The notes under the pieces were generated by a model. It worked only from the letters and a program-made list of their open reading frames with translations. It did no database searches and was not told the origin of the DNA. Below, piece by piece: positions 17,563 to 22,413 of a stretch of 64,000 nt of DNA. The position numbers were made by a program, and so were the translations under genes. Positions within the stretch are counted from its first letter, which is position 1, and each line of letters begins with the position of its first letter. Source of the stretch: Halobellus rarus (GTDB lineage Archaea > Halobacteriota > Halobacteria > Halobacteriales > Haloferacaceae); NCBI RefSeq assembly GCF_024494595.1, contig NZ_JANHDI010000008.1, forward strand, positions 185,527 through 249,526. Reading direction: 5' to 3'.

Positions 17563-18261
17563 CTACGGAAGCAGCGTTCCGGCGCTTTGCGCTACGAAGA
17601 GAACTCCGAAGCCCGCGAGAACGACGGCGCTGACGCCCGCGACGATCGGCGCGAAGGCGTCGACGCGCCGTTCGGCACCGACGAGCGCGGCCGGGAAGCC
17701 GGTGATCCAGAGCGTGATCCCGCCGAAGAAGCCCGCGATGAGCGCCGGCGACCCGGTGTCGACGACCACGATCCCCGCCAGCGACTCGCCGACGTACGGC
17801 GTCTGCGCCAGGACGTCGAGCGTCCCCGGCCGGAGCAGTCCGACGCCGATCGTGAGCCAGAAGAGGATCTGATAGGGGTTCGTGAGCGCCAGCACGAACG
17901 CCTTTCTGAACCCCGTCCCGACGCGGGGGTCCTCGGCGTCCGTGGCCCCGCCCCCGGCCGTGAACGACGACCGGACGTCGGTGGCGGCGCCGTAGGCGAA
18001 ATACAGCATCAACACGCCACCCAGGCCGATCATCACCGCGCGGACGAGCGGGAACCGCTCGACGAACGTGACGACGCCGAGCAGCGCGAGCACGAAGAAG
18101 ATCCCGTCGGCGGTCATCGCCCCGAGGCCGGCCTTGAACCCCGCGATCCACCCCCGGAGCACGCTCTCCTCGGCGATGATCGCGTTCATCGGCCCCGGCG
18201 GAGCCGCGAGTGCGACCCCGAAGACGATGCCGGCACCGAGCGTCGCGACGAGACTCGTCAT
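17563..18261 (-). CDS. LysE/RhtB-family exporter
   Basis: 232 residues with six predicted transmembrane segments. The family signature AAPPGPMNAIIAEESVLRGW near residues 18-37 (usually PGP-x-N) and GFKAGLGAMTADGIFF are clear, as is the ALTNPYQILFW loop. Such proteins export amino acids or, in some branches of the superfamily, metal ions. It lies in the same direction as, and 78 bp after, the GDT1-type gene and the SirR regulator, so a role in metal homeostasis is possible but unproven. Confidence 0.85.
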   Translation of the reverse strand: MTSLVATLGAGIVFGVALAAPPGPMNAIIAEESVLRGWIAGFKAGLGAMTADGIFFVLALLGVVTFVERFPLVRAVMIGLGGVLMLYFAYGAATDVRSSFTAGGGATDAEDPRVGTGFRKAFVLALTNPYQILFWLTIGVGLLRPGTLDVLAQTPYVGESLAGIVVVDTGSPALIAGFFGGITLWITGFPAALVGAERRVDAFAPIVAGVSAVVLAGFGVLFVAQSAGTLLP

Positions 18262-18339: not shown

Positions 18340-19050
18340 TCAGACAAGTCCGGCCGCGGCGGCGCTGACCGCCTCGATGAACGCCTCCCAGAGCGAGAAC
18401 CCGGTGAAGATAGAAAGCACCGTATCCGCCCCGAAAAACGCGAAGAGCGCCGCCGCGGCGAAGTGCGCCTTCCGCATATCCACCCGGTGGGCGAACGTGT
18501 GGAAGAAGTACGCGTTCGCGAGGCTGATCGGGATGATCGCGAGCATCTCGCCGAACCAGATCGCCGACGTCGCGCCGTACTGGACGGCCAGGCCGATCGT
18601 GATCAACTGCGTCTTGTCGCCGAACTCGCCGGTGACCATCATCACGAAGATGGGGAGAAAGCCGCCGAACGACCCCGAGTAGCGCTCCAGCGGCTCCGGG
18701 AGGTCCAGCGCGGCGAGGTCCGCGAAGCCGCCGTCGGTCTCGGTCGACGCGGCCGCGGTCGTCTCCGTCCCCGCCGAGGGGGCCGAGCGGTACAGGAGCA
18801 CGGCGAACGCCAGAAAGAGCGCCGCCGTCACCGCGTCGAGAACGACGGGCGGCAGCGCCGCCTGCAGCGCCCGGCCGAAGAGGATCTCGACGGCCGTCCA
18901 CCCGGCGAAGGCGGACCCCGCCGCCGCGACGACCACCTTCGGGTCGTACCGCGTCGAGAGCCCGGCGATGATGAACTGGACCTTCTCTCCGGGGAGGACG
19001 GCCAACTGGGCGACGAAGGCGACGATCAGGATTTCGAGGTACGTGCTCAC
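18340..19050 (-). CDS. GDT1/TMEM165-family cation transporter
   Basis: 236 residues in two halves of three helices each, the UPF0016/GDT1 layout. The second half carries the family motif E-x-G-D-K-T intact (VTGEFGDKTQLITIGLA). In the first half the equivalent site reads VLPGEKVQF, without the leading Glu and with Glu for Asp. Family members move Mn2+ or Ca2+ out of the cytoplasm, often against protons. Its start overlaps the stop of the SirR-type regulator by 4 bases (ATGA), so the regulator and transporter are one operon, which points to manganese or a similar divalent metal. Confidence 0.9.
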   Translation of the reverse strand: MSTYLEILIVAFVAQLAVLPGEKVQFIIAGLSTRYDPKVVVAAAGSAFAGWTAVEILFGRALQAALPPVVLDAVTAALFLAFAVLLYRSAPSAGTETTAAASTETDGGFADLAALDLPEPLERYSGSFGGFLPIFVMMVTGEFGDKTQLITIGLAVQYGATSAIWFGEMLAIIPISLANAYFFHTFAHRVDMRKAHFAAAALFAFFGADTVLSIFTGFSLWEAFIEAVSAAAAGLV

Positions 19051-19751
19051 GCGTCGGTCACCTCGGCCCGATCGTCCGGACCGGTTCGCTCGTCGACCGG
19101 CCGGACGCGGATCGCGTCGGCGACGGTGTCCGGAAGGCTCTGTTCGGCCCCCTCACCGGTCCGGACGGTGACCATCCCGAAGGGAGCGACGTCGACGACT
19201 TCGAGGGTCGTGCCCGGCGTGATGCCGGCGTCGGCCAGGTACTCCAGCTCCTCGCGGTCGCGGTCGCTGACGCGGGAGACGACGACGCGGTCCCCGACAT
19301 CGTGGGTCGACAGCGGCGTCGTCTCGTCCTCATCGAGCGGTGCGAGGTCGGCGGAGGGAATCGGGTCGCCGTGCGGGTCGACCGCGGGGTCACCGAGCGC
19401 GGCCGCGACGCGCCGCTCGAACTCCTCGCTGATGTGGTGTTCCAGCGCGTCGGCCTCGTCGTGCACCTCGCTCCAGGAGTAGTCCAACTGCTCGGCGAGA
19501 TACGCCTCCAGCAGCCGGTGGTGGCGGAGCACTTCCAGCGCGACGGTTTCGCCCTCCGGAGTGAGTTCCACCCCCTTGTACTTCTCGCGCGTCACGAGCC
19601 CGCGCTCCTCGAGCGTCCCGAGCATACTCGTCACCGTCGCCGGCGTCTTGTCGAGGGCCTCGGCGACCGCGGATGTGGAGACCGGCGGCCCCGACCGCGC
19701 CTGAATCTCGTAGATGACCTTTAGGTAGTCCTCCATCACGTCGCTCAACAT
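19047..19751 (-). CDS. sirR: DtxR/MntR-family metal-dependent transcriptional regulator (SirR type)
   Basis: 234 residues. Residues 1-60 are the winged helix (MLSDVMEDYLKVIYEIQ, VAEALDKTPATVTSMLGTLEERGLV). The dimerisation and metal-binding domain follows (HHRLLEAYLAEQLDYSWSEVHDEADALEHHISEEF), with the expected Glu/His/Cys-equivalent ligands, and a FeoA-like SH3 domain is at about 165-225. It senses Mn2+ or Fe2+ and represses metal transport genes. A perfect 16-bp palindrome sits 7 bp upstream of the start, consistent with autoregulation. It is the first gene of the operon with the GDT1-type transporter. Confidence 0.93.
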   Translation of the reverse strand: MLSDVMEDYLKVIYEIQARSGPPVSTSAVAEALDKTPATVTSMLGTLEERGLVTREKYKGVELTPEGETVALEVLRHHRLLEAYLAEQLDYSWSEVHDEADALEHHISEEFERRVAAALGDPAVDPHGDPIPSADLAPLDEDETTPLSTHDVGDRVVVSRVSDRDREELEYLADAGITPGTTLEVVDVAPFGMVTVRTGEGAEQSLPDTVADAIRVRPVDERTGPDDRAEVTDA

Positions 19752-19855: not shown

Positions 19856-21028
19856 CTATACTCCCTTGCCCATCAAGTGACTCCGGAGCACATCGGCCGT
19901 CTTCGTGCCCGATTCCGTGTTGAGTACGACGGCGCGGTCCTCGGAACTCAGGACCCCGTCCTCTGCGAGCCGATCGACGGCCGCGAGCGCGACGCCGCCG
20001 GCCGCACCGACCTCCAGTCCCACGCGCTGGGCGGCGAGGACGGCACTTTCCAGGCTCTCTTCGTCGTCGACGGCGACGACGCCGCCGTTCGTCTCCTCGA
20101 TCGCTTCGAGCGCGGCGGCTCCGCCCTTCGGGTCGGTGATCTCTAACTCCCCGACGATCGTGTCCGGCGACCCCCAGGGCTCTACCGAGTCGTTGTCCTG
20201 TTGGTACGCAGTCACGAGGGGCGCACACCCCGACGGCTGCGCGGCGAAGATTCGCGGGAGCGAATCGAGGAGCTCGATCGAACGGAGTTCGCGGAACCCC
20301 TTCGCGACGCCGGCGACGACCTCGCCGGTGCCCGCCGGAACGATCACGGCGTCCGGCCGGACCCACCCTGTGGCTTCGGCGATCTCGAAGGCGACCGTCT
20401 TGATCCCGTCGTGGCGGTACGGGTTGTCGAACTCTTGAAGCGTGTGCCACTCCGACTGCAACTGCTCGTGCAGCGCCGCCTCGGCGTCCGGGTAGCGCCC
20501 GCCCACGACGCGCATCTCCCCGCCGTGGACGTTGATCATCGCCTTGTTCGAGAACGGCGACCGCGAGGGGACGAAGGCGTACGAGCGCAGATCGGCTATC
20601 CCCGCGTACGAGGCGGCGGACTGTCCGGCGTTGCCGGCCGCCGCGAGCGCGACGAGTCCCGCGTCGGCCTCGCGGGCGGCGGTCACCGCCGGGGCGAGCC
20701 CTCGGTCCAGCACCGTTCCCGTCGGGTTCCGGCTCTCGTCCTTGATCGAGAGCGCATCGAGTCCCGCTTCTCCGGCGAGCGACGGGGCCGAAACGAGCGG
20801 CGTCCCGCCCTCTTCGGCCGTGGTCGGTTCCTCGAACGGGAGTAGGTCCGCGTAGCGCCACATCGACGCCGGCGCGTCGGCGAGCGCGCCGTCCGTCCAG
20901 TCGACGGCGTCGTACTCGTAGGCGGCTTCGAGTCTCGCGCCGGCGTCACTCGGTCCGGTCGCCGTCGCGTCGTAGCGCTCGTCGGTCTCGGTGCAGACGA
21001 GTCCGCGGAACGCCGCTGTCGTTTGCAT
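19856..21028 (-). CDS. Threonine synthase-like fold-type II protein lacking the PLP lysine
   Basis: 390 residues with the overall threonine synthase plan: GGTPLVSAP, LSIKDESRNPTG, AAAGNAGQSAASYAG (substrate/carboxylate loop), VIVPAGTGEVVAG (PLP phosphate loop) and a C-terminal VVLNTESGTKTAD. Active enzymes read NPTGSFKDRG, with the Schiff-base Lys in SFK. Here the sequence is NPTGTVLDRG, confirmed from the bases at about 20700-20735, so position 107 is Leu. The phosphate loop is also altered (GTGE instead of GSGG). A classical PLP reaction is therefore unlikely; it may be a regulator, a binding protein or a changed enzyme. The reading frame is intact over full length, so it is not a simple pseudogene. 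Confidence 0.88.
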   Translation of the reverse strand: MQTTAAFRGLVCTETDERYDATATGPSDAGARLEAAYEYDAVDWTDGALADAPASMWRYADLLPFEEPTTAEEGGTPLVSAPSLAGEAGLDALSIKDESRNPTGTVLDRGLAPAVTAAREADAGLVALAAAGNAGQSAASYAGIADLRSYAFVPSRSPFSNKAMINVHGGEMRVVGGRYPDAEAALHEQLQSEWHTLQEFDNPYRHDGIKTVAFEIAEATGWVRPDAVIVPAGTGEVVAGVAKGFRELRSIELLDSLPRIFAAQPSGCAPLVTAYQQDNDSVEPWGSPDTIVGELEITDPKGGAAALEAIEETNGGVVAVDDEESLESAVLAAQRVGLEVGAAGGVALAAVDRLAEDGVLSSEDRAVVLNTESGTKTADVLRSHLMGKGV

Positions 21029-21138
21029 ACCCGGAGTTACGATCCGACGGACAAATCCCTATTCACTCGCCGTCGAGGGACGTCGGTACGTTCGGGAACA
21101 CTCGCAGTCTCTTTGTGTCCACCGAGCGAAAGCCGACT

Positions 21139-22413
21139 ATGGACGGAGAATCCGTCGCGGTCGTCGGCGCGGGACTGGCCGGACTCGTCGCCGCCCGGCG
21201 ACTCGCGGCTTCGGGCGCGGACGTGACCGTGGTAGAGCGACGTTCGACCGTGGGCGGCCGAGTCCGGACCGAGACGCGAGACGGGTTCACGCTCGATCGC
21301 GGCTTTCAGGTCCTTTTCACCGCGTACCCGGCCGTTCGCCGGGAACTCGACCTGGACGCGCTCGACCTCCGGTACTTCCGCCCCGGAGCGGTCATCGCCC
21401 GCCCCGGATCGCGGTCGGTGCTCTCGGACCCGCTTCGTGACCTCCGCGCCGTCCCGGCGTCCGTTCGGAACGCCGAGGTGACGTTGAGCGACAAACTCCG
21501 GACGCTGCTGCTCCGCCAGCACGTCGGCACGCGGACGGAGTCGGAGATCTTTCGTACGACGGACCGATCGATCCGGTCGTACCTCCGCGAGTGGGGCTTC
21601 TCCGAGGACTACGTCGAGCACTTCGTCGCCCCCTTCTACGGCGGGATCACGCTCGACCGGTCGCTGTCGACCTCCAAACGCGTCTTCGAGTACACGTTCA
21701 AGGCGCTCTCCGACGGGCAGATCGCGGTACCCGCGGCCGGAATGCGCGCGATCCCCGACCAGCTGGCCGAGCGCGCGGAGCGTGCGGGCGCGTCGATCCG
21801 CTGCTCCGAACGGGTCCGGTCGGTCCACGATGACGGCGACGACGTCACCGTCGAAACGGACGCGGAGACCCTGGACGCCGACGCGGTCGTCGTCGCGTGC
21901 GATCCGAAGGAAGCGCATCGGCTCACGGACGTCGAATCGGTCCCGCTGGAGGCCCGCGGGTGCGTGACGCAGTACTACCGACTACCGGCCGAAGACGCGC
22001 CGAAGACGGGCCGGAAGATCCTACTCAACGCCGCGGACCCGTCGCCGAACACGGTCGTGCCGATGTCGGAGGTCGCCCCCGAGTACGCCCCGGACGGGAC
22101 GGCGCTGTTCAACGCGACGTTCCTGGGCGAGACCGCTCTCGACCGCGACGCGTCCGCACTCGCGGAGGAGACGCGACTCACCCTGGAGTCGTGGTATCCC
22201 GAACGCGACTTCTCGGCGCTCGAATCGGTCCGGACCCACCGGATCGAGTTCGCGCAGTTCGATCAGCCGCCGGGGGTCCACGAGTCGTTGCCGGACGTCC
22301 GCGCACCGGGTGGGTCGACGTACCTCGCGGGCGACTACACCGCGTGGTCGTCGATCCAGGGCGCGATGCGGAGCGGGCGCGAGGCCGCGCGGGCCGTCGA
22401 GCGCGACCGCTGA
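21139..22413 (+). CDS. FAD-dependent oxidoreductase (amine oxidase / phytoene desaturase superfamily)
   Basis: 424 residues from the ATG at 21139 (MDGESVAVVGAGLAG); a GTG eight codons upstream is the alternative. The Rossmann motif GAGLAGLVAARRLA binds ADP of FAD, followed by Glu of VVERRSTVGGRVRT. The C-terminal FAD closing motif is GSTYLAGDYTAWSSIQGAMRSG. The middle domain (RYFRPGAVI, DKLRTLLLR, VEHFVAPFYGGITLDR) resembles protoporphyrinogen oxidase and carotenoid desaturase relatives. Substrate unknown. No carotenoid or heme genes are adjacent. The start is divergent from the threonine synthase-like gene, with 110 bp between. Confidence 0.88.
   Translation: MDGESVAVVGAGLAGLVAARRLAASGADVTVVERRSTVGGRVRTETRDGFTLDRGFQVLFTAYPAVRRELDLDALDLRYFRPGAVIARPGSRSVLSDPLRDLRAVPASVRNAEVTLSDKLRTLLLRQHVGTRTESEIFRTTDRSIRSYLREWGFSEDYVEHFVAPFYGGITLDRSLSTSKRVFEYTFKALSDGQIAVPAAGMRAIPDQLAERAERAGASIRCSERVRSVHDDGDDVTVETDAETLDADAVVVACDPKEAHRLTDVESVPLEARGCVTQYYRLPAEDAPKTGRKILLNAADPSPNTVVPMSEVAPEYAPDGTALFNATFLGETALDRDASALAEETRLTLESWYPERDFSALESVRTHRIEFAQFDQPPGVHESLPDVRAPGGSTYLAGDYTAWSSIQGAMRSGREAARAVERDR

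Follow-up and report, generated by a model that had tools for sequence, protein, structure and literature searches.

Repeated loss of the cofactor lysine in a threonine synthase-like family of haloarchaea: a probable pseudoenzyme

Why would an enzyme be kept without its chemistry? The question is raised by a gene in the window, the 64,000-nucleotide stretch of Halobellus rarus DNA analysed here, whose product belongs by descent to the threonine synthase family of fold-type II PLP enzymes and carries leucine at the position of the Schiff-base lysine. To our knowledge, pseudoenzymes with a PLP-enzyme fold are few and usually represent one lineage and a single origin. The family described here is found almost throughout a well-studied archaeal class and its cofactor lysine was lost repeatedly, while lysine-bearing orthologues at the same locus provide natural controls; the question of why the protein is kept is therefore directly testable in Haloferax volcanii.

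An intact gene with leucine at the Schiff-base position

The frame that encodes the protein (Table 1) starts with ATG and contains no internal stops. A phmmer search of the PDB returned threonine synthases as all of its top matches (best 4.6e-37), and an AlphaFold2 model built from 61 relatives (mean pLDDT 94.4, pTM 0.94) likewise found threonine synthases as the best solved structures (Foldseek 1.1e-27; VIA-align Z 49 to 42). The model superimposes better on the ligand-bound Thermus thermophilus enzyme 1v7c (Z 46.8, 1.9 Å) than on its apo forms (Z ~42), a difference that would suit a closed cleft but may be a modelling habit of AlphaFold. A sequence-only reading of the locus had described a complete frame of well-kept fold, leucine in place of the PLP lysine within NPTGTVLDRG, a GTGE phosphate loop and a GNAGQS substrate loop. 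All of these were borne out: alignment to solved threonine synthases places Leu107 on the lysine column, and the two loops lie at residues 231-236 (PAGTGE) and 132-137.

Table 1. Features of the threonine synthase-like gene and its neighbours (positions within the window)
Feature	Position	Strand	Evidence or remark
LysE-family amino-acid exporter	17563..18261	-	Pfam LysE 9.1e-23
GDT1-type divalent cation exporter	18340..19050	-	Pfam GDT1 1.3e-28
MntR/SirR-like DtxR-family metalloregulator, downstream	19047..19751	-	Pfam/NCBIfam
Lys-less threonine-synthase-like gene	19856..21028	-	intact ORF, 390 aa, Pfam PALP E=3.8e-65
C-terminal family tail RSHLMGKGV, residues 382-390	19859..19885	-	
Degenerate cofactor-phosphate loop PAGTGE, residues 231-236	20321..20338	-	TGGGV in Lys-bearing relatives
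NPYR, residues 202-205	20414..20425	-	R205, presumed substrate-phosphate arginine
Family signature NKAMINVHGGEM, residues 161-172	20513..20548	-	includes K162 and H168
GNAGQS loop, residues 132-137	20618..20635	-	canonical carboxylate/O3' loop
Former Schiff-base motif NPTGTVLDRG, residues 101-110	20699..20728	-	solved threonine synthases read NPTGSFKDRG here
Leu107 codon CTG	20708-20710	-	falls on the Schiff-base Lys column
FAD amine-oxidoreductase/phytoene-desaturase-like, divergent neighbour	21115..22413	+	Pfam Amino_oxidase 2.5e-52

The protein scores below every NCBIfam threonine synthase cut-off (276.7 against 303 bits for PRK08197, 141 against 167 for TIGR00260). As the motif, the loop and the family cut-offs all fail, threonine synthase activity is absent by all sequence criteria. 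The family carries the annotation threonine synthase; annotation pipelines, like metabolic models, that treat it as such are probably wrong for most haloarchaea. At its N-terminus the window protein (19889-21028) has only the first cysteine left of a CxxC...CxxC zinc-ribbon-like motif, which is present in 26 of 27 lysine-bearing and 67 of 123 lysine-less orthologues.

Loss of the lysine and of the cofactor-phosphate loop

Among 150 distinct orthologues the Schiff-base site is occupied by lysine in 27 and by another residue in 123, the replacements being of eleven kinds (L, T, V, A, Y, H, F, R, D, Q and I). The orthologues 89% and 84% identical to the window protein also have leucine there. Since the same state is found in close and distant orthologues, a sequencing error or frameshift as the cause of Leu107 is excluded, and a function specific to leucine is excluded by the many residues that fill the site. 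The question of whether leucine is fixed in a clade, which the sequence-only reading had raised, thus has a divided answer: the lysine-less state is fixed in large clades, whereas leucine itself is not conserved, ten other residues taking its place.

The GGG cofactor-phosphate loop is found in 26 of the 27 lysine-bearing orthologues and in none of the 123 lysine-less ones. Five phylogenetically independent contrasts are available, of which three to four couple the loss of the lysine with that of the GGG loop and none shows the opposite, a number too small for significance by itself. In 58 of 89 lysine-less sequences glutamate replaces valine or glycine inside the former loop, a residue that would be unsuited to phosphate, and the Haloferacaceae clade has a new loop consensus, [GST]-[TS]-G-E. 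The alignment of orthologues revealed no newly conserved lysine in the lysine-less set, as the mostly conserved lysines 96, 162, 210, 243 and 376 are also lysine in lysine-bearing relatives or in canonical ThrC; a compensating lysine is thereby excluded. In the absence of the Schiff-base lysine as well as of the GGG loop, neither an internal aldimine nor normal holding of PLP is expected, and the alignments strongly support the view that PLP chemistry has been lost in the lysine-less proteins.

On a maximum-likelihood tree computed without the motif columns, in which the outgroups have lysine, the state of the Schiff-base site changes at least five times. Placing all lysine-less sequences in a single clade is rejected by the AU test (dlnL 221.7, p-AU 3.8e-5), which excludes one single ancient loss. 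Lysine-less proteins stand beside lysine-bearing sisters in Halococcus, in the Natronorubrum/Haloterrigena group and in Haloglomus, and one very large lysine-less clade comprises Haloferacaceae and Haloarculaceae relatives. In large clades the loss of the lysine is ancient. Nested within this very large clade, the Halomarina rubra orthologue (L081, 6001-7173) has lysine at the Schiff-base site together with the loop PLEGTEG; with its broken loop it may either have kept the lysine as an intermediate or have regained it. A non-haloarchaeal sequence with lysine and GGG loop (L232, G493 contig C80:3325-4470; 43% identity) groups beside the haloarchaeal family.

What selection keeps, and where

The lysine-less gene is kept under purifying selection after the loss: between close orthologues the median dN/dS is 0.146 for leucine members (dS about 0.5) and 0.176 for lysine members. 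Residue conservation was counted over 89 lysine-less sequences, with 20 lysine-bearing ones for comparison. K162, M164, N166, V167, H168 and M172 are present in all 89 and are near-invariant in the lysine-bearing set, whereas R205 is found in 88 of 89 and in 20 of 20, respectively, and also in canonical ThrC. Within the GNAGQS loop of the lysine-less proteins G132 (89/89) and Q136 (87/89) are retained, while N133 and A134 drift in several lineages. Tail residues R382, S383, L385, M386 and G389 are invariant in both kinds of orthologue and absent from canonical ThrC. Overall, N101, T103, D108, R109, K162, H168, P203, R205, Q264 and C268 show complete or almost complete conservation in both groups, and the KAM[IV]NVHGG[DE]M segment and the RSHLM.KG tail persist in almost every orthologue, whether or not the lysine is there. 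By their position, K162 and R205 are presumably the lysine of GK.AQ and the arginine of NPxR that bind the substrate phosphate in T. thermophilus threonine synthase. What the lysine-less proteins retain is a presumably anion-binding cleft along with the two family-specific elements. The proposal that the protein is a pseudoenzyme or a neofunctionalised protein kept by selection is supported by the fixation of the lysine-less state in large clades, by the accompanying loss of the loop, by the lack of a replacement lysine and by a dN/dS of about 0.15.

Of 167 family genomes, about 70, the window's own among them (L002/L242), hold an additional member at another locus, and its pattern is the reverse. 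The second copies (type C; L242 at G000 contig C18:128224-129387, L225-L229 and L245-L294), 51 of which were examined, keep the lysine and the GGG loop but have neither the NVHGG segment nor the RSHLM tail, the signature residues being altered in 51 of 51. None of them adjoins the FAD, SirR or LysE genes. Among the 178 aligned sequences no family member lacked both feature sets; one very divergent lysine-less orthologue (L240) fails the strict signature pattern and yet reads INVHGGDM. When a gain of the signature in the ancestor of the other members was compared with its loss in the second copies by the AU test, gain was not rejected (p-AU 0.68). Whichever the direction in which the signature changed, the signature and tail on the one hand and the PLP apparatus on the other are separable, and such opposite patterns would be expected if two functions had come apart. 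Some genomes (G146, G159 and G160, for instance) have the second copy without the lysine-less form.

The orthologues are spread across the order, in 79 named contigs, and within the window's family a match better than 1e-100 was found in about 162 of 170 genomes, whereas a clear orthologue is missing in about 8 of 170. Each of the eight genomes examined closely has one copy of the gene and a canonical ThrC with NPTGSFKDRG and GNAGN; the window's own genome has a canonical ThrC (L004) and other lysine-bearing paralogues. In the Haloquadratum walsbyi J07HQW2 type (L054, L134; G100) the orthologue is a pseudogene broken by stops, and in one Halobellus rufus record (L058) it is frameshifted. Very divergent lysine-less orthologues are found in small-genome haloarchaea (L230, L231 and L240 in G205, G180 and G179), and the first two of these have a degenerate tail, RSRLEARPR. 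The degenerate tails, the one pseudogene and the ~8 of 170 genomes without an orthologue mean that the function cannot be strictly essential.

The lysine-bearing and lysine-less forms that have the signature share a common, mostly conserved locus. The FAD oxidoreductase gene adjoins 42 of 65 lysine-less and 13 of 18 lysine-bearing orthologues; the SirR-like regulator is found at 26 of 65 and 3 of 18 loci, and the LysE gene, frequently directly downstream, at 29 of 65 and 8 of 18. As the neighbours vary by lineage and are lost in Natrialbaceae-like genomes, gene context does not fix a partner. We also discarded it as a key to function, because the recurring FAD, SirR-like, GDT1 and LysE genes also fit plain inherited synteny.

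In H. volcanii the FAD oxidoreductase is HVO_0817 (PMC4300041) and SirR is HVO_0819 (PMC11349517), which by gene order places the orthologue at HVO_0818, an assignment that we infer. A literature search returned nothing on the gene, nor a paper naming HVO_0818. A transposon insertion in thrC3 (HVO_2969) results in an H. volcanii strain that requires glycine, serine and threonine (PMC4300041), indicating that HVO_0818, if it is the orthologue, does not take over from ThrC in the cell, as would be expected of a pseudoenzyme.

Possible functions and known relatives

Very probably the lysine-less protein has a second, non-catalytic job that has so far gone undescribed. We favour, as rather the more probable account, a pseudoenzyme that keeps a PLP-independent function, probably in ligand binding or regulation, separable from catalysis. 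According to this proposal the ancestral protein would have combined catalysis with a PLP-independent function residing in the signature segment and the tail; the latter would have been retained in nearly all haloarchaea, and catalysis dropped at least four times. The emptied active-site cleft would still bind a small anionic ligand, for which phosphohomoserine is one candidate and other phosphates or carboxylates related to amino acids are further ones, and ligand binding and domain closure would be passed via the tail and the signature face to a partner protein. On this view the lysine-less protein would serve amino-acid metabolism or export as a regulatory or sensor subunit without catalysis of its own. 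The sequence-only reading had suggested an amino acid or a phosphorylated ligand, which would fit the retained K162, R205 and GNAGQS loop. The evolutionary form of the proposal, in which a two-function haloarchaeal ancestor united PLP catalysis with an undescribed, nearly class-wide role, lost catalysis several times at the home locus and kept it in extra copies that are without the signature, we consider evenly poised between right and wrong.

Among the alternatives, it is conceivable, though we are doubtful, that the protein joins an active threonine synthase paralogue in a mixed oligomer as its non-catalytic subunit, resembling LCB1. Active paralogues do coexist with it, since every genome checked contained canonical ThrC and about 70 of 167 contained the second copy, and threonine synthases, like their fold-type II relatives, work as oligomers (PMC9081730). 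However, comparison of the loci showed no linkage of the gene to canonical thrC, and the second copy, which fewer than half of the genomes with the lysine-less form possess, is not an obligatory partner; such an obligatory partnership was set aside as unlikely. That the old cleft now runs a new, PLP-independent reaction, such as a phosphate elimination or isomerisation via K162, H168, R205 and D108/R109, is in our estimate unlikely. The invariance or near-invariance of D108, R109, K162, H168 and R205 would suit such an enzyme, and the Haloferacaceae loop consensus resembles gain as well as decay; yet the same residues are equally invariant in the lysine-bearing relatives, giving no sign of a new catalytic set, and the residues at the lysine site and in the loop vary between lysine-less clades, contrary to expectation if all of these had one new active site in common.

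We give little credence to an active PLP enzyme that still binds the cofactor, non-covalently or by another lysine. The fold is kept and some of the PLP contacts other than the Schiff base (N133, T103 and D108) are often retained, but the GGG loop is missing from every lysine-less orthologue, glutamate has commonly entered it and no conserved lysine has been gained. Least credible of all is a decaying gene on its way to loss: the stops in one Haloquadratum walsbyi-like copy, the frameshift in one Halobellus record and the few genomes without the gene are what decay would leave, whereas the gene is intact nearly everywhere, with a low dN/dS, class-wide invariant motifs and an ancient loss of the lysine in large clades. 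The measured purifying selection already contradicts such decay.

Compared with ThrC of T. thermophilus (1v7c), Bacillus subtilis (6nmx/6cgq), Mycobacterium tuberculosis (2d1f) and Arabidopsis thaliana (2c2b), the window protein is 29-32% identical and alike in fold, and shares the NPTG..DRG frame, a GNxxxS-type loop, NPYR and the lysine of the substrate-phosphate site. Unlike ThrC, it lacks the Schiff-base lysine and the glycine/GNAGN-type cofactor-phosphate loop, and has the KAM[IV]NVHGG segment and the RSHLM tail. The lysine-bearing haloarchaeal orthologues (Natronococcus, Halorarius and Halosegnis types), at ~50% identity, have the same locus, signature and tail and differ in keeping the lysine and the GGG loop; they are presumably active. 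LCB1 of serine palmitoyltransferase is also a PLP-enzyme homologue without the lysine, non-catalytic but required; it is of fold-type I, whereas the window protein is of fold-type II, and forms an obligatory heterodimer with LCB2. As a precedent, the plant TSB-like protein comes nearest: a fold-type II pseudoenzyme of tryptophan synthase beta that allosterically activates its partner TSA, is kept for that reason, and in which the reported decisive changes are E190A and D386E rather than loss of the Schiff-base lysine (PMC12727527). Both are fold-type II paralogues kept without the parent reaction, and yet TSB-like belongs to one plant clade and has a known partner, whereas in the haloarchaeal family the lysine and the phosphate loop were lost repeatedly, and in archaea.
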